DNA from: a virus
IMG/VR virus record: IMGVR_UViG_3300009132_000022
Location: 1 to 28,697 of that record
Strand: one strand, 5' to 3'
DNA: 28,697 nt
The position numbers were made by a program, and so were the translations under genes. Each line of letters begins with the position of its first letter. Positions within the stretch are counted from its first letter, which is position 1. Shown in pieces: positions 2,965-8,755 of the stretch. The notes beneath the pieces were generated by a model. That model had not been told where the DNA came from. It ran no database searches and saw nothing but the letters and a program-made list of their open reading frames with translations.

Positions 2965-4023
2965 TTAGTCGCCTATAACTGCGTCATAAGCACCTACCAC
3001 AACATCAGCAGGTAAGCCTACTTGACAACCTAAACCGAAACGCATTGCAATTTTAACATTGTCAGAACCATCATACTGCCAAGCGTCAATGTATTGAGCT
3101 GTGGTGTAATCTGTATTCAAGTTAGAACCTACCACTAAATTCTCTTCGTAAGTTAATACTAGAGCCTCGTCAAACATACCTTGACAAACGTGAATTGGAA
3201 TACCTAAGTATTGCAATGTATCAAACGCTTGGTTAGTAGACTGTAAATTCACACCTTGATAAGAACCGCTAGTAGATAATGCTTGCATATAGTTTCCTGC
3301 TGTCTTAGGAGAGCAGTAAAAAGCAATATCTGGACGGTTTAAAATAGCAGGGCAAGAAGCTAAAGCCTCATTGTAAACTTCGTGAAAAGCTCCATCGTTA
3401 TTAATGATATGAGGGTCTGCTGCTGTACCTGCGTTAAAACCGTTTGCTGTAACAATTTTCTCGTTAGTATTAGGTGAAGCTTCAGTACCTCCTGCTGCTA
3501 AGATAGAAGCTCTGTAACCTCCGTTATCAAAAGTTCCATCGTTAGAAAGGAATCCAGTTGCATAAACAGAAGAACCTTGCCAGATAGAAGTCTCTACTCC
3601 TTGAGCTGCGTAACCTGCTACAGTTGCCATAGAGAAGTTTACAAACTCAGGTGAACCTGCTGTCATAGTTTCTCTTGCGCCTGTCATTCCTGCCCACGTA
3701 GGTAGGAGTGTTTTACGACATAACTCTTCCATAACAGCTAAGTCAGTAAGAGTAAGAACTCTCTCTCCTAGTGTTAGTGAGTCGTTGTCATTCCAGTCAC
3801 AGTTACCTGCCTGAATAACGCCTGTAGACGAAAGGCTAGAAATTACGGCTTTGCTCTGAATACCGTCGATTTGTCGCACAAAACCTTGTGTTAAGGTATT
3901 GGCGAGTTTAAGAGCAGGAGCTACAAACGGTGCTGCGTGTACACCTGCGTAAGTTGTAGCAGGTGAAACAGTAGGGTTTGCGAACTCTCTGCGCTTTCTT
4001 GATAGTGAACGTGAATAGCTCAT
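2965..4023 (-). CDS. Major capsid protein (putative)
   Basis: This 352-aa soluble protein is rich in Ala, Thr and Gly. It directly follows a scaffold-like gene (stop and start share a base at 4023) and precedes a tube-like gene, which is the standard scaffold-capsid-tube order. A basic N-terminus (SRKRREF) leads into a region that could be the N-arm. The middle and C-terminal parts, for example PDIAFYCSPKTAGNYMQAL and the closing GLGCQVGLPADVVVGAYDA, look like the P and A domain pattern of HK97-fold capsids. No sequence motif proves the fold. A predicted structure would decide it. Confidence 0.75.
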   Translation of the reverse strand: MSYSRSLSRKRREFANPTVSPATTYAGVHAAPFVAPALKLANTLTQGFVRQIDGIQSKAVISSLSSTGVIQAGNCDWNDNDSLTLGERVLTLTDLAVMEELCRKTLLPTWAGMTGARETMTAGSPEFVNFSMATVAGYAAQGVETSIWQGSSVYATGFLSNDGTFDNGGYRASILAAGGTEASPNTNEKIVTANGFNAGTAADPHIINNDGAFHEVYNEALASCPAILNRPDIAFYCSPKTAGNYMQALSTSGSYQGVNLQSTNQAFDTLQYLGIPIHVCQGMFDEALVLTYEENLVVGSNLNTDYTTAQYIDAWQYDGSDNVKIAMRFGLGCQVGLPADVVVGAYDAVIGD

Positions 4024-4529
4024 TATTTGTTTAAATTTTTATTAATCATATTAAATGCCTGACTAGTAGCTTTACCCATTGTGGTATTGCTCTCCTCATT
4101 TTCTTCTCCAAAAGGAGCATTTCTGAGTGGCTTGGTTGCAGGCGACTGACCAAACTCACGAAGCTGCTTACGCAACTCTATGTTCTGACGACGTAAACGA
4201 CTTAACATACGAGCCTCACGACCCTCTTTACTAAGACCTCTACGAGTCCTTGAGCCTCTCCTACGTCCTCGACGCTGACGAGAAGCCTCTACTTTTTCTT
4301 CGATTTTTTCTTCTTTCACTTCTTCAGTTACTTCTATTTCGCCTTCGCTTGCTTCAATTAAGTCCATTGCCATTTGATGCACAGCTTCAGCTTGTTCAGC
4401 AGATAACCCCATCTCTACTAACAGATTTACAAAAACTTCGTGGGAGTCTGGGGTAGACTCCTCAACTACTGTGGTTTCTTCGACTTTCGTTTCCTCCACA
4501 ATTTCTTCTTCAAATTTATACTTACTCAT
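4023..4529 (-). CDS. Scaffold-like protein with Arg-rich segment
   Basis: The 168-aa protein has three parts. Residues about 5-80 are strongly acidic with repeated Glu-Val-Glu. Residues about 83-122 are extremely basic (SRQRRGRRRGSRTRR and following) and likely helical. The C-terminal part contains SPATKPLRNAPFGEE, like the tails of scaffold proteins in other Bacteroidota phages. The position immediately before the capsid gene supports a scaffold or assembly role. The basic stretch could bind DNA, RNA or the acidic half of another copy. It starts at ATG 4529 behind a TATATATA leader also found at the fibre gene. Confidence 0.6.
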   Translation of the reverse strand: MSKYKFEEEIVEETKVEETTVVEESTPDSHEVFVNLLVEMGLSAEQAEAVHQMAMDLIEASEGEIEVTEEVKEEKIEEKVEASRQRRGRRRGSRTRRGLSKEGREARMLSRLRRQNIELRKQLREFGQSPATKPLRNAPFGEENEESNTTMGKATSQAFNMINKNLNK

Positions 4530-4564: not shown

Positions 4565-4825
4565 TTAATAGCCATATTCGGCTTCGTCAATAATTTCTAA
4601 AAATAAATCTCTGTCTATATTCCTTATGGTATCTGGGGCGTATCTCTGGAATAAAAGGCGTGTCCTTTCATAATCTTCGTCGTATACAGCGTCTTCTATT
4701 TGACCTATAACAGCCAAGAATCTAGTATCGTACTCATAGTCAAACGCAAATTCTTCTAGCATAACAATTAACTCCTGTTGTGCTGAGTTAGTCCATACGT
4801 CCCATATTCTTCTAATTAAACTCAT
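4565..4825 (-). CDS. Small acidic protein, island gene 10
   Basis: This 86-aa protein has about 20 Asp/Glu against 8 Arg and is probably helical, with no membrane segment or recognised domain. The first 20 residues (MSLIRRIWDVWTNSAQQ) are amphipathic and the remainder is acidic, ending in EYGY. It is the last of a run of small acidic genes and lies directly before the scaffold-like gene. Its start shares a base with the stop of the preceding gene (TAATG), so translation is probably coupled. The charge and the nearby ArdA-like gene suggest a DNA mimic or an anti-defence role, but nothing in the sequence proves this. Confidence 0.7.
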   Translation of the reverse strand: MSLIRRIWDVWTNSAQQELIVMLEEFAFDYEYDTRFLAVIGQIEDAVYDEDYERTRLLFQRYAPDTIRNIDRDLFLEIIDEAEYGY

Positions 4826-5055
4826 TATACACCAAATACTTCATAACCTTCGTCTTCTACCCAACTGATTATCGCGTCTACTGCGCTAAGTTTGTTTCCA
4901 TATACGTAAATAATTACGTCAGCACCTTCTTGGAAAATCTCATAATCTACTGGTAAAGAAACTCCCCTACCAAAACTCTCGTTATTCCAATCTATTAAAT
5001 TTTCTATCTCTACTGCGTCTGCATCAAAGACTTTAAACCCTCCTAAATATTCCAT
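4825..5055 (-). CDS. Small acidic protein, island gene 9
   Basis: This 76-aa protein has about 16 acidic and 3 basic residues. Alternating beta and helix segments (FKVFDADAVEIENLIDW, then DVIIYVYGNKLSAVDAIISW) suggest a small alpha/beta fold. No family is recognised. Its start is preceded by AATAAAAAGAATATG, the same leader as the next gene upstream (5075-5341), so the pair probably arose by copying of a leader or a gene. Confidence 0.7.
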   Translation of the reverse strand: MEYLGGFKVFDADAVEIENLIDWNNESFGRGVSLPVDYEIFQEGADVIIYVYGNKLSAVDAIISWVEDEGYEVFGV

Positions 5056-5068
5056 ATTCTTTTTATTA
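5053..5068 (-). repeat. Leader repeat B, copy 1
   Basis: The minus strand reads TAATAAAAAGAATATG, ending in the start codon of the gene at 4825-5055. An identical 16-base copy precedes the gene at 5075-5341. The A-rich bases just before ATG fit translation initiation in Bacteroidota. Confidence 0.75.
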
Positions 5069-5074
5069 AGCTCA

Positions 5075-5341
5075 TTAGTTAGCGTGAAAATTTACCTCTA
5101 CGTGACCTTCAAAGTCTACTCCTGCTTCCATATACCAACCGCTATTTCTTTCTACATATTCAAGTGCTGACATTAATCTGTCTAAATCATTGTCTGGTAT
5201 AGGTATGTATGAGTCAATTCTAAGGTGGTAATCACTTACTGTTTCAAAGTCCCAATCTCTTCCACGTAAACCTACCTCAGCTTCAAATGCTTCAAAAATT
5301 CCGTCAAAGACAATTTCCCAGTCGTATTGATAATCGTTCAT
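5075..5341 (-). CDS. Small acidic protein, island gene 8
   Basis: This 88-aa protein is strongly acidic and aromatic, beginning MNDYQYDWEIVFDGIFEAFE. The C-terminal half (YHLRIDSYIPIPDNDLDRL, then VDFEGHVEVNFHAN) looks like a small mixed alpha/beta domain. There is no cysteine, signal peptide or membrane segment, and no family was recognised. It follows the ArdA-like gene and shares its leader type with the next gene downstream. A role in blocking host DNA-targeting defence is inferred from charge and context only. Confidence 0.7.
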   Translation of the reverse strand: MNDYQYDWEIVFDGIFEAFEAEVGLRGRDWDFETVSDYHLRIDSYIPIPDNDLDRLMSALEYVERNSGWYMEAGVDFEGHVEVNFHAN

Positions 5342-5354
5342 ATTCTTTTTATTA
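5339..5354 (-). repeat. Leader repeat B, copy 2
   Basis: This is an exact second copy of TAATAAAAAGAATATG. Its first three bases are the TAA stop of the ArdA-like gene and its last three the ATG of the next gene. Confidence 0.75.
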
Positions 5355-6083
5355 GTGGTTTCTCCAAACCCTGTCTTTAATTAAACTATAGTCATACTCT
5401 AAGTCTCTAGCAAATTTTTTGTAGTCAAAAAAATCTTTTACCTTGTCACCTAAAGCTGACTCTAAATCTCCAACTAAATCATATACATACCATTCGGCTA
5501 TAGCTTCGTTACGCATATCTGTTATTTCTTCGTAATACGCTTGTGCTTCTGCTTCAGTATCATACTGGTATTCCCAGTCGTCCATAATAAGGTTATATAC
5601 GTCACCGTTAGCAACTAAAGATAAACCCAAGTCATTCCAGTCAAAATAGCTTTCAGCTAGTTCTTTGGGTATGTTGTTTCCATAAACGTCGTCTATAAAG
5701 TTGTAAGCATAAGCGAGCATAGAATCATACTCTCCTGAGTAAGCCTCTTCTAAATAGTCTTTTGAAACGCCACCCATATCACTTGCCACTTTTAATATGT
5801 CGTAAAGGTCTAAACCTATATCTTCTCCAAATTCTCCTAACTCTTGTAGCTCGTCCCAATTATTTTCTGACATACCATAGCCGTCCATACAATAATCACT
5901 TATACCGTCTGAATCCACAAACTCCCATTCTTCAACTTCTGGTGGGTAGTTGTCGTATGATTCTTTTAAACCGTCTTGAAAATCGTCCCAAGAGTTAAAC
6001 GAAAAAGGGTATATGTAAAAACCTTGACCACGATAGTTATAATCGTAAGGCTCCATAAAAATCCAAATTTTATCTAGTTTCAT
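5352..6083 (-). CDS. ardA: ArdA-like antirestriction protein with duplicated C-terminal module
   Basis: This 243-aa, very acidic protein resembles ArdA, the DNA-mimic dimer that occupies the DNA-binding groove of type I restriction-modification enzymes. The end of the chain has the family signature FFDYKKFARDL (218-228) followed by a short beta hairpin. The N-terminal SFNSWDDFQDGLKESY (28-43) and acidic middle also fit. Typical ArdA proteins are about 165-180 aa. The extra length is explained by a degenerate earlier copy of the same module, ESYFDWNDLGLSL (144-156), preceded like the second copy by a helix. The gene is tightly packed between acidic genes. It lies in the late half of the genome, although antirestriction genes are usually early. 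The assignment is from memory of the family, not from a search. Confidence 0.75.
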   Translation of the reverse strand: MKLDKIWIFMEPYDYNYRGQGFYIYPFSFNSWDDFQDGLKESYDNYPPEVEEWEFVDSDGISDYCMDGYGMSENNWDELQELGEFGEDIGLDLYDILKVASDMGGVSKDYLEEAYSGEYDSMLAYAYNFIDDVYGNNIPKELAESYFDWNDLGLSLVANGDVYNLIMDDWEYQYDTEAEAQAYYEEITDMRNEAIAEWYVYDLVGDLESALGDKVKDFFDYKKFARDLEYDYSLIKDRVWRNH

Positions 6084-6084
6084 T

Positions 6085-6360
6085 TTAATTGTATAATTCT
6101 AAGTTATAGACTTCGTTATTTAGAGCGTCTATTAAATCTGTCTCAAAGCCTCTTCCAAACTCTCTTTCTGCTGTGTCGTAAGCCATATTTAAAAGCCTGT
6201 GCGTAGCATCTGTATCACCGTCTGCTAAAGTGTCTGAAGCTTCAAATAATAAATCTAAAAGCTTTCCAGAAGCTCCTATCTCTTCTAAAGCTATATCCAT
6301 TATTACTATGGGTAACTCCCAAGTTCTTAGGTAATCTTGTACTATTCTTTCAGCACTCAT
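6085..6360 (-). CDS. Small acidic helical protein, island gene 6
   Basis: This 91-aa protein is predicted to be almost entirely helical (for example IVQDYLRTWELPIVIMDIAL, then LLDLLFEASDTLADGDTDA). It is acidic and lacks cysteine and membrane segments. It lies one base upstream of the ArdA-like gene, and its start overlaps the preceding stop (TAATG), so the two are probably translated together. The helical pattern would suit a protein-protein adaptor or a small DNA mimic. No family is recognised. Confidence 0.7.
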   Translation of the reverse strand: MSAERIVQDYLRTWELPIVIMDIALEEIGASGKLLDLLFEASDTLADGDTDATHRLLNMAYDTAEREFGRGFETDLIDALNNEVYNLELYN

Positions 6361-6620
6361 TAGTCGTTAGAATGTACGTTAGCGTAAACATCATCAACCC
6401 ACTCCCACCACATACCATAAGCGTTCATTACGTCTTGTAATTCTTCGCTTCCTAATATACCAAAATCTGTGCTAGACCAATAAGAAGCGTGGTCGCTGTC
6501 TCCTACAGCCATCATAAATAATGCTCCTCCACTCCCATACGGTCTTGCTTCCATTACTTCTATACCAAGCCTTTCTAACTCTCGGATAGCTTGTTCTTCT
6601 CTGTTTAATTTATATCTCAT
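6360..6620 (-). CDS. Small acidic protein with MRYKLNR start, island gene 5
   Basis: This 86-aa protein begins MRYKLNREEQAIRELERLGI and then becomes acidic and aromatic (ALFMMAVGDSDHASYWSST, then MWWEWVDDVYANVH). The first seven residues and the leader are shared with the gene at 6898-7161 through a 39-base near-identical stretch, while the rest of the two proteins differs. This looks like a common start module attached to different bodies, or old paralogues that diverged. No known domain is seen. Confidence 0.7.
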   Translation of the reverse strand: MRYKLNREEQAIRELERLGIEVMEARPYGSGGALFMMAVGDSDHASYWSSTDFGILGSEELQDVMNAYGMWWEWVDDVYANVHSND

Positions 6621-6636
6621 TTTAACTTCCGTATTT
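6598..6636 (-). repeat. Repeat C, copy 1 (leader plus first codons)
   Basis: This 39-base stretch holds AAATACGGAAGTTAAAATGA and the first codons (MRYKLNR) of the gene at 6360-6620. It differs by one base from 7139-7177. It extends past the start codon, so it is a duplicated piece of gene rather than only a ribosome-binding leader. Confidence 0.85.
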
Positions 6637-6896
6637 TAATTTATTTTTTTTATATATGAAGTAACCATAGAGTAAAACTCCTCATCTTTAGTAAAATAGT
6701 ATATATCTTCAGATAGTGACTCCTCGTCTTCTGCCCAAACAGTAAACACTTCCGAGTCGCCAGTAGCATCGTCGTACATTTCAACTTCAAACATATAACC
6801 TCTCTCGAACGGGTTTCCTTGCGAATATGCGTCCCAATCGTCAAAGAATTTTATTAGTTCTCTGTTATCGTATATACTGTTAAATTTGTAACTCAT
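6636..6896 (-). CDS. Small acidic protein with MSYKFN start, island gene 4
   Basis: This 86-aa protein begins MSYKFNSIYDNRELIKFFDD and has a strongly acidic centre (YDDATGDSEVFTVWAEDEES) followed by a more basic tail ending IKKIN. The start MSYKFN and the leader GAAGTTAAAATGAG resemble those of the two MRYKLNR genes on either side, so all three may be related. Beta strands around FEVEMYDD and EVFTVWAE suggest a small alpha/beta domain. Function unknown; it belongs to the acidic island. Confidence 0.7.
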   Translation of the reverse strand: MSYKFNSIYDNRELIKFFDDWDAYSQGNPFERGYMFEVEMYDDATGDSEVFTVWAEDEESLSEDIYYFTKDEEFYSMVTSYIKKIN

Positions 6897-6897
6897 T

Positions 6898-7161
6898 TTA
6901 ACTTCTTATTACAACTTCCCATTGGTGTTCACCTCCTGCGTCATCGTAGTAAATATCGTCCTGCATACTCATACCGCTTCTAATTGACTCTTCAATAAAG
7001 TCAGGGTCTAAGTCTAAAGGAGCAAAGACCCACATTGATAACGAGCCGTTTTTTGGGTTATCTCTAATAACTGTTATCTCATCGTCGAGCCTTCTTATTG
7101 CCCACGCGAACTCTCCTGCCTCGTCAAATAAATCTTGGTCTCTGTTTAATTTATATCTCAT
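6898..7161 (-). CDS. Small acidic protein with MRYKLNR start, island gene 3
   Basis: This 87-aa protein begins MRYKLNRDQDLFDEAGEFAW and continues with beta-like (ITVIRDN, SLSMWVFAPL) and acidic segments (LDPDFIEESIRSG, then DDIYYDDAGGEHQWEVVI). It shares its leader and first seven codons with 6360-6620. It starts two bases from the stop of the prohead protease, so it is read in the same operon. No family is recognised. Confidence 0.7.
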   Translation of the reverse strand: MRYKLNRDQDLFDEAGEFAWAIRRLDDEITVIRDNPKNGSLSMWVFAPLDLDPDFIEESIRSGMSMQDDIYYDDAGGEHQWEVVIRS

Positions 7162-7177
7162 TTTAATTTCCGTATTT
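7139..7177 (-). repeat. Repeat C, copy 2 (leader plus first codons)
   Basis: This second copy of the 39-base leader and start segment (AAATACGGAAATTAAAATGA and following codons) differs from 6598-6636 at one base. It overlaps the end of the prohead protease gene, so part of the leader also encodes protease residues (CGGAAATTAA supplies the final Gly-Asn-stop). Confidence 0.85.
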
Positions 7178-8245
7178 AGCTTTTATTGAACCGCAAATCT
7201 TTTCTGCTGTTTCTTTGTTTCCGTAGCGTTTCATCTGGTCAGCTATACACTCGTCCCACGAGTAAGAAGCTAATTCAATATACTCTTCTTCTAGGTTGTT
7301 GAAGTTTTCGTAACTACCAAACATTCTTTTAAACCTTCCTTTAAGTAAGGCTTTGTAATACTTGACCTTTAATTGGTCTAATTCTACTTTTTCCATTTCT
7401 ACTTCTTCTGTCTCTTCAATTTTCTTTTCTATCTCTTCCACCTCACCATCGTACTCTATTAACACACCTTCAAAAACTTCTAGCTCTACACCCCCTTCTG
7501 TTTTATATTTTCCGTTATCTAGTTCTATAGGTAAACCTTCTTCGTCTAAAGTAAATACCTTTGCGCCTGCTTCTAAGGCTTCACCTTCAGTTGCAATTAC
7601 CTTGCCGTTGTCTAAGCTCACTTCTGCGTAGAACTTGCGCTTAAAGAACCCCCAGAGCTTTTTAACTACGTTAGACATACTTGAGCGTTTCACCTTAGTA
7701 GACATTTCTTGAACCGAGTCTACAAAATACCCTTCAATAGAAAATCCACGTATCTCACCTTCTTTTACTTGCTCCCACATCTCGTCGTTTCCTACGTGTA
7801 CACGCACCATCCAAGTACCTTCTGGAACGCTTAAACCGTAGTGCTTAGACTTATCCATTTCTGGGTCTTCAACTATCCACGACTCGACTACGCTTACACC
7901 ATCTACTTTTTCTTGGTGTTCAAACGTGTGTTCGTTGGTACGGTTAGATTTTAGGAATAACTCAGAAGCTAGTTTTACTGTGTCTTGAGAAAAGTATACG
8001 TCGTACTCTTCGTCATTCATCTCGTCGTAGCGTGGTATGTTCTTATCTGGAATTAGAGCAGCTCCTATTAGGGTGCGTTTCTCTTCATCTATAGCTGCTA
8101 GACTCAAAGCCTTTTGCTTCTTGTCTTTAGAGAAAAAGATAAAGTTCTCCTCTATTGCAGGAAACTTCACAAGGCTAATAGCCTCGACTCCAAAAGCGTC
8201 TTGGTCTTCTTCTATAAGTAGTTCTACTAATTTTCTGTTAGCCAT
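7163..8245 (-). CDS. Prohead protease, XkdF type (S78-like) with acidic scaffold-like tail
   Basis: This 360-aa protein has an N-terminal protease-like domain: AISLVKFPAIEENF (22-35), TLIGAALIPDKNIPR (58-72), NEHTFEHQ (104-111, candidate catalytic His) and IRGFSIEGYF (165-174, candidate catalytic Ser169). This pattern is that of phage XkdF-type maturation proteases, which cut scaffold and capsid N-termini in the prohead. Residues about 205-300 are acidic and repetitive and could act as internal scaffold. The C-terminus has WDECIADQMKRYGNKETAEK, a conserved tail motif in such proteins. It lies inside the island of small acidic genes, about 3 kb upstream of the capsid gene. Its start has the TAAAACAACTTAAAGATG leader shared with the two genes before it. 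Confidence 0.8.
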   Translation of the reverse strand: MANRKLVELLIEEDQDAFGVEAISLVKFPAIEENFIFFSKDKKQKALSLAAIDEEKRTLIGAALIPDKNIPRYDEMNDEEYDVYFSQDTVKLASELFLKSNRTNEHTFEHQEKVDGVSVVESWIVEDPEMDKSKHYGLSVPEGTWMVRVHVGNDEMWEQVKEGEIRGFSIEGYFVDSVQEMSTKVKRSSMSNVVKKLWGFFKRKFYAEVSLDNGKVIATEGEALEAGAKVFTLDEEGLPIELDNGKYKTEGGVELEVFEGVLIEYDGEVEEIEKKIEETEEVEMEKVELDQLKVKYYKALLKGRFKRMFGSYENFNNLEEEYIELASYSWDECIADQMKRYGNKETAEKICGSIKAKYGN

Positions 8246-8260
8246 CTTTAAGTTGTTTTA
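8243..8260 (-). repeat. Leader repeat A, copy 3
   Basis: The minus strand reads TAAAACAACTTAAAGATG, ending in the protease start codon and beginning with the stop codon of the gene at 8258-8491. The same 18 bases occur at 8489-8506 and 8738-8755. Confidence 0.85.
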
Positions 8261-8491
8261 TAGTTCTTCAATCCCAAAGTGAAATCCGTAGCTATCAAGA
8301 TAATCTATTATTTCGTATAGCTCACCATCTTCGTCCATAAAACCGATTGCTTCTAGTGTTGAACCATCGTTATATTGTTCTATTTCTGTGTATGGTACAA
8401 AACCCCACGTTCTAGTATCAAGGTGTTTTAACGCCCGTGCAAAATCGTTGTAATCGCTTTTGTCTACTTCGTAAATTCTAATTGGGTACAT
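8258..8491 (-). CDS. Small acidic protein, island gene 2
   Basis: This 77-aa protein has about 18 acidic and 5 basic residues. A strand-like start (MYPIRIYEVDKSDYNDFARA) leads to a helix, then FVPYTEIEQYNDGSTLEAIG and an acidic end (FMDEDGELYEIIDYLDSYG). It could form a compact alpha/beta fold. Leader repeat A precedes it. It lies between another acidic gene and the prohead protease. No family is recognised. Confidence 0.7.
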   Translation of the reverse strand: MYPIRIYEVDKSDYNDFARALKHLDTRTWGFVPYTEIEQYNDGSTLEAIGFMDEDGELYEIIDYLDSYGFHFGIEEL

Positions 8492-8506
8492 CTTTAAGTT
8501 GTTTTA
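8489..8506 (-). repeat. Leader repeat A, copy 2
   Basis: This exact copy of TAAAACAACTTAAAGATG starts with the TAA stop of the gene at 8504-8740 and ends with the start codon of the gene at 8258-8491. Confidence 0.85.
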
Positions 8507-8740
8507 GTATTCTCTATTAGGGTAAACTTCCCAAATTGGGTCTGAGTTATTTGGAAACTCTTGCTCACATACAAAAATACGGTAGCCATTTATACCTCCT
8601 TGTGGGTCTTCAAAACTAATAAAAACGCTATTGATATATTGAACCGAATCGTCATAACCAACATCATATAGGGTTTCTTCTATATCTCGCCTGTTAGTTA
8701 TTAGCTCGTAGTCGTTTCCTAATTCTCTTACTGTGTCCAT
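8504..8740 (-). CDS. Small acidic protein, island gene 1
   Basis: This 78-aa acidic protein begins MDTVRELGNDYELITNRRDI and continues with strand-like pieces (YINSVFISFEDP, NGYRIFVCEQEF) and an acidic-aromatic end (WEVYPNREY). It has one cysteine, no membrane segment and no recognised domain. It is the first gene of the acidic island, starting 36 bases after the tape measure stop behind leader repeat A. Confidence 0.7.
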   Translation of the reverse strand: MDTVRELGNDYELITNRRDIEETLYDVGYDDSVQYINSVFISFEDPQGGINGYRIFVCEQEFPNNSDPIWEVYPNREY

Positions 8741-8755
8741 CTTTAAGTTGTTTTA
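8738..8755 (-). repeat. Leader repeat A, copy 1
   Basis: This exact copy of TAAAACAACTTAAAGATG precedes the first island gene. With the copies at 8489 and 8243 it forms a set of three identical 18-base leaders on three consecutive genes with unrelated products. Confidence 0.85.

Follow-up and report, generated by a model that had tools for sequence, protein, structure and literature searches.

The locus analysed here raises the question of whether an anti-restriction protein of the ArdA family can carry its C-terminal module twice and, if so, what a second copy might contribute to its function. The stretch of DNA studied, in the following called the window, comprises 28,697 nucleotides of the IMG/VR virus record IMGVR_UViG_3300009132_000022, and this 28.7 kb virus contig encodes a terminase, a portal protein, a head protease and a tape-measure protein. 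The gene in question lies on the minus strand at the coordinates that an earlier note on this DNA had given (Table 1), and it is a member of the ArdA family. The Pfam model PF07275 (ArdA) matches the 243-aa protein with 47.7 bits (E 3e-12; curated cut-off 27), in agreement with the ArdA-like assignment made earlier, and its relatives score 48–56 bits. Moreover, the PHROG anti-restriction families 14321 and 2059 match the protein, and comparison with an ArdA HMM gives an E-value of 2e-16. Its net charge of -43 over 243 aa makes it highly acidic, as is expected of an ArdA. PADLOC gave no hit and a sequence search of the PDB with the window protein returned no match.

ArdA proteins usually, not obligatorily, have a single domain 3 and a length of 166–177 aa (PMC3906837). 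The window protein with its two copies exceeds this by 66–77 residues, close to the difference of about 70 residues that had been assumed before. ArdA also occurs within polyvalent proteins, fused to conflict domains such as ArdC-N (PMC5512222); as ArdA alone passes the Pfam cut-off in the window protein, it does not belong to this class. Similarly, it is a full ArdA and no sArdC, i.e., none of the small stand-alone ArdA proteins of approximately 114 aa, which comprise roughly the C-terminal third of ArdA (PMC12548430), since domains 1 and 2 are present.

The doubling of the C-terminal module, which corresponds to domain 3, was confirmed at the level of sequence comparison. The motif FFDYKKFARDL near the C-terminus had been proposed to have a counterpart about 72 residues upstream, and this is found in ESYFDWNDLGLSL, the F-D pairs of both motifs being exactly 72 residues apart. 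The self-alignment proposed in the earlier note is not significant: a BLOSUM62 local alignment of residues 125–170 against residues 197–242 yields a score of 31 compared to a shuffle mean of 24 (p about 0.10–0.14), and alignment of the two halves of the protein to each other results in p = 0.59, as the copies are too diverged in this single protein. A domain-3 HMM was built solely from 23 domain-3 units of single-copy ArdAs from bacterial genomes and each copy was scored separately, resulting in 31.1 bits for copy 1 and 27.5 bits for copy 2 with shuffle maxima of 10.7 and 11.8 (2000 shuffles each). Also the PF07275 model reports two separate stretches in the window protein and in several relatives. 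In two of these relatives, L004 and L005, the copies align directly to each other with scores of 57 and 55, reached by 0 and 1 of 2000 shuffles (p ≤ 0.0005). The profile scores together with these direct alignments establish that the doubling holds. That the two segments are unrelated and resemble each other by acidic, helical composition would fit the non-significant self-alignment of the window protein but is refuted by the profile test, in which both copies far exceed composition-matched shuffles, also in several relatives, and by the direct alignments in L004 and L005, so that this reading retains practically no probability.

Alignment with single-copy ArdAs indicates how the copies are arranged. 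The usual position of domain 3 is occupied by copy 1, and the terminal hairpin and the end of the protein, VWRNH, which matches the VFxNH ends of other ArdAs, follow copy 2. The protein can thus be regarded as a complete ArdA that has approximately 80 extra residues inside domain 3. Copy 1 is the degenerate one of the two, as proposed earlier, having lost the R-D and the terminal hairpin. The claim that it lacks F-A-R-D applies to the window protein and not to all relatives, as L004 and L005 still have SYFDWEHFGREL or TYFDWEHFGREL at this position and thereby keep F-G-R-E-L.

Table 1. Features of the doubled ArdA gene and of its surroundings (positions in the window; residues of the ArdA protein).
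Feature	Position	Strand	Basis
ArdA-family gene, 243 aa (243 codons + stop)	5352..6083	minus	ORF list, Pfam PF07275, PHROG, ArdA HMM
Domains 1 and 2, residues 1-108, net charge -20	5760..6083	minus	alignment with single-copy ArdAs, structure model, charge
Domain 3 copy 1, residues 109-158, usual domain-3 position	5610..5759	minus	domain-3 HMM 31.1 bits, alignment
ESYFDWNDLGLSL motif, copy 1, residues 144-156	5616..5654	minus	
Acidic linker between copies, residues 159-195, predicted helices 161-188, net -10 in 37	5499..5609	minus	model, charge
Domain 3 copy 2, residues 196-243, canonical FARDL and ArdA C-terminal end	5355..5498	minus	domain-3 HMM 27.5 bits
FFDYKKFARDL motif, copy 2, residues 218-228	5400..5432	minus	
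Predicted terminal beta hairpin, residues 232-241, after copy 2 only	5361..5390	minus	37-sequence structure model
Island of seven small acidic ORFs around ArdA, 76-91 aa, net -11 to -18 per 100 aa	4565..7161	minus	
Head maturation protease	7163-8245		
Scaffold and capsid genes	2965-4529		

A first structure model based on 10 sequences was poor (mean pLDDT 67) and was replaced by a model based on 37 sequences (mean pLDDT 85). In the latter, the region of copy 1 is predicted to form a strand (residues 115–118) and three helices (122–133, 140–145 and 149–158), followed by the linker helices, by helices 192–204, 207–218 and 221–228 and by the terminal hairpin. The strand that the earlier note had placed after copy 1 is replaced by acidic helices in this better model. 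Comparison with the PDB gives Tn916 ArdA (ORF18, PDB 2w82) in the top row as the sole clear match (Z 5.9, 4.0 Å, 146 of 162 residues; Z 2.4 in the row below), and the match spans residues 3–243 of the model and 3–164 of the chain. This match is rated as moderate since a plain Foldseek search of the PDB with the model returned nothing credible and did not list 2w82. The fold comparison with Tn916 ArdA proposed earlier, carried out with the single chain, thus resulted in a whole-length match, and the predicted fold is, with moderate confidence, the three-domain fold of Tn916 ArdA with an insert of approximately 80 residues. Strong negative charge and the domain-3 motif (Y-I-D-Y...G-R-D-L in Tn916 ArdA) are common to both proteins; Tn916 ArdA has 165 aa and only one domain 3, whereas the window protein has in addition the second domain 3 and the acidic helical linker. 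The best match among viral models is BFVD A0A516MA77, a viral protein of 233 aa, which aligns over the full length with TM 0.66/0.69 and 27% identity. Both models contain lone bridge residues at positions 147 and 219, which hold corresponding F residues of the two copies. They are the only lone bridge residues in the second model and, as all remaining strands or bridges of the first model are located in domain 1, the two residues probably bridge each other across the copies.

The doubled architecture is conserved among relatives. Both copies are present in the full-length IMG/VR relatives (L001, L003, L004, L005, L008–L012, L054 and L055) and also in L002, which the contig end truncates at residue 226; L059 breaks off at residue 151. 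All complete relatives found are 55–83% identical to the window protein (L004 62%, L005 57%) and keep both copies. In nearly all pairs dN/dS is below 0.4 in both copies, and the linker values are low as well in almost all pairs, indicating that both copies are under purifying selection; for the close pair of the window protein and L002 the value for copy 1 is 0.75, based on few sites. By comparison, all 62 of 62 other ArdA reading frames surveyed in Pseudomonadota genomes and viral contigs, a sample that includes some near-duplicates and has Bacillota genomes outside its range, are single-copy.

Judged from profile matches, the doubling is found in two Bacillota phage lineages besides the group of the window. 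The ArdA of the Clostridioides difficile prophage phiCDIF1296T (AKP44840.1, 237 aa) contains two Pfam stretches and likewise has two domain-3 copies, and the ArdA of Rossellomorea phage phiT1 (245 aa) is doubled with 36 and 28 bits; the C. difficile relative L109 (178 aa) contains one copy only. A search of the phage collection with the window protein as query gave nothing, matches appearing only with L004 as query, which finds the C. difficile protein by tblastn with E 4e-7. The C-terminal blocks of L004 and the C. difficile protein, comprising both copies and the linker, are 32.5% identical over 120 aa, yet their first domains belong to different ArdA types: domain 1 of the phiCDIF1296T protein is of the Tn916 type (NLGKYNEGELIGEW) and that of the window group is of the FMEPYD type. 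The doubled block may have been exchanged between lineages or may have more than one origin. In a tree of single domain-3 units the copy-1 clade has a support of 0.99 while its placement is unsupported; the units are too short for the tree to separate a tandem duplication from a fusion.

ArdA homologues with extensions were already known, and these were read as fusions and expected to stay active (PMC3906837). The doublings in the C. difficile prophage and in the Rossellomorea phage indicate that not every long ArdA is a fusion to another protein. The open-access literature searched yielded no account of an ArdA with its domain 3 doubled, and the doubled domain 3 is a real, conserved and, within that literature, so far unremarked architecture in a known family. 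Apart from this, a stand-alone 85-aa ORF of Clostridioides phage LIBA6276 annotated as hypothetical (L097, 2483–2740) consists of two units resembling ArdA domain 3 and lacks domains 1 and 2. Matches in Mycobacterium phages spanning two genes are weak. A short contig in a metagenome-assembled Pseudomonadales genome (L021, 4828–4977) belongs to a related phage; its presence there is probably a binning artefact and says little about the host.

As to the function, we give an even chance to the reading that the protein is an ArdA-type DNA mimic with a tandem domain 3 that blocks type I or related defence, the copies being packed within the chain. The window ArdA would occupy the DNA groove of the host's type I restriction-modification system, or of a related defence based on a methyltransferase, and thereby block it. 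More tentatively, copy 1 might pack on copy 2 within one chain as an internal ArdA dimer joint, and the centre of the mimic would then be provided by a single chain. In Tn916 ArdA, domain 3 joins the two subunits of the dimer, and mutations in it abolish antimodification but not antirestriction (PMC3906837); furthermore, type I enzymes can be blocked by small proteins that correspond to just the C-terminal part of ArdA (PMC12548430). The suggestion in the earlier note that the extra module might change the dimer is reasonable, as the doubled module is the one through which Tn916 ArdA dimerizes. The lone bridge residues present in both models fit a contact from copy to copy. On the other hand, those of the second model could pair with domain-3 strands instead, copy 2 carries little charge in the clade to which the window belongs, the dN/dS of copy 1 is raised, based on few sites, in the pair with L002, and a location among late head genes is odd for a protein needed at DNA entry. 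Since domain 3 carries the dimer joint and the antimodification activity of ArdA, a natural chain with two such domains offers a ready test of how far the mimic depends on dimerization.

It is possible, though rather unlikely, that the doubling results in a longer mimic, in which dimerization occurs via copy 2 at the C-terminus, with copy 1 and the linker making the arms longer and more negatively charged, so that the dimer would mimic more DNA than the approximately 42 bp of Tn916 ArdA. Copy 2 keeps the genuine C-terminal end of ArdA, hydrophobic residues occur in both copies at the position of the interface residue L134, and copy 1 and the linker are strongly acidic with -20 and -27 per 100 residues. 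Copy 2 itself is the least acidic part of the window protein (net -3 in 48 residues), compared to a mean domain-3 charge of -16.6 per 100 residues in single-copy ArdAs. With much of the added acidity residing in the helical linker, the simple lengthening of the DNA mimic suggested earlier is so far unsupported. The low charge of copy 2 does not strongly exclude a longer mimic, as copy 2 is more acidic in other relatives and the difference shrinks over the aligned core alone. The predicted bridge between equivalent residues points to packing of the copies within a chain, and the longer mimic is the weaker of these two ideas.

We regard it as unlikely that the protein is a DNA mimic with another DNA-binding protein as its target, such as BREX, a nuclease or RNA polymerase, or with a role in head assembly or packaging. 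In favour of such a change in target or timing, the gene has a fixed place in the head-gene cluster of the relatives, between the genes for head protease and scaffold. Moreover, phage P1 has two antirestriction proteins associated with the head, DarA and Hdf (PMC12810830), to which the window ArdA is likened by its gene position near head genes, and ArdA can alter gene expression (PMC13300388). Nevertheless, accessory phage genes are often placed among structural genes without having a structural role.

Finally, an ordinary ArdA might merely tolerate a duplicated and partly decayed domain 3 with its function unchanged, which we consider quite improbable. Tn916 ArdA with a broken dimer joint keeps antirestriction, the known extended homologues are expected to be active (PMC3906837) and the R-D motif is lost from copy 1. 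This is opposed by the retention of both copies in every complete relative, including those with as little as 55% identity, by the purifying selection acting on both, and by the occurrence of the doubling in three separate lineages.

Returning to the locus itself, the ArdA gene is part of an acidic-gene island that is flanked by the gene of the head maturation protease on one side and by those of scaffold and capsid on the other, and the gene order is the same in relatives; 4023–4529 is inferred to be the scaffold gene from its place before the capsid gene. Most other proteins of this phage have about -5 or less per 100 aa, considerably below the acidity of the island ORFs. No Pfam or PHROG family matches the island ORFs above chance, and a scan for promoters and terminators remained at chance level. 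That these ORFs are further pieces of domain 3 or ArdA was rejected, the best score with the ArdA and domain-3 HMMs being 1.9 bits. Comparable acidic ORFs of 61–93 aa, mostly unrelated to each other, are found in the window (4565–7161 and 8258–8740), L003 (2630–5373), L004 (2387–4802) and L005 (5708–8971). The content of the island varies among relatives, while the ArdA gene and an 86-aa ORF (4565–4825) stay.

Near-identical sequences that comprise a stop codon, a linker and a start codon recur at the junctions of successive small genes in these islands, far more often than chance would give. In L005, the island of which contains ten small acidic ORFs, TAAMCAACAGAGAYATG occurs in 7 copies without mismatch (6691–8204), none being expected by chance. 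In the window, TAAAACAACTTAAAGATG is present three times (8243–8260, 8489–8506 and 8738–8755), once before the protease gene, and TAATAAAAAGAATATG twice without mismatch (5053–5068 and 5339–5354). This suggests an exchange of cassettes via short homologous linkers or copied translation signals, and the island resembles an array of interchangeable cassettes. It would be a place to seek further counter-defence genes that are so far unrecognised. The ArdA with its double domain 3 might be the recognisable member of a cassette array making a counter-defence set of DNA mimics, possibly packaged in the head and co-injected with the DNA, although we consider this quite doubtful. The ORFs 6360–6620, 6636–6896 and 6898–7161 all start with M-[RS]-Y-K-[LF]-N, and the first and the last of them share 35% identity over 43 residues (E 0.004), which may reflect paralogy or recombination extending into the coding start.
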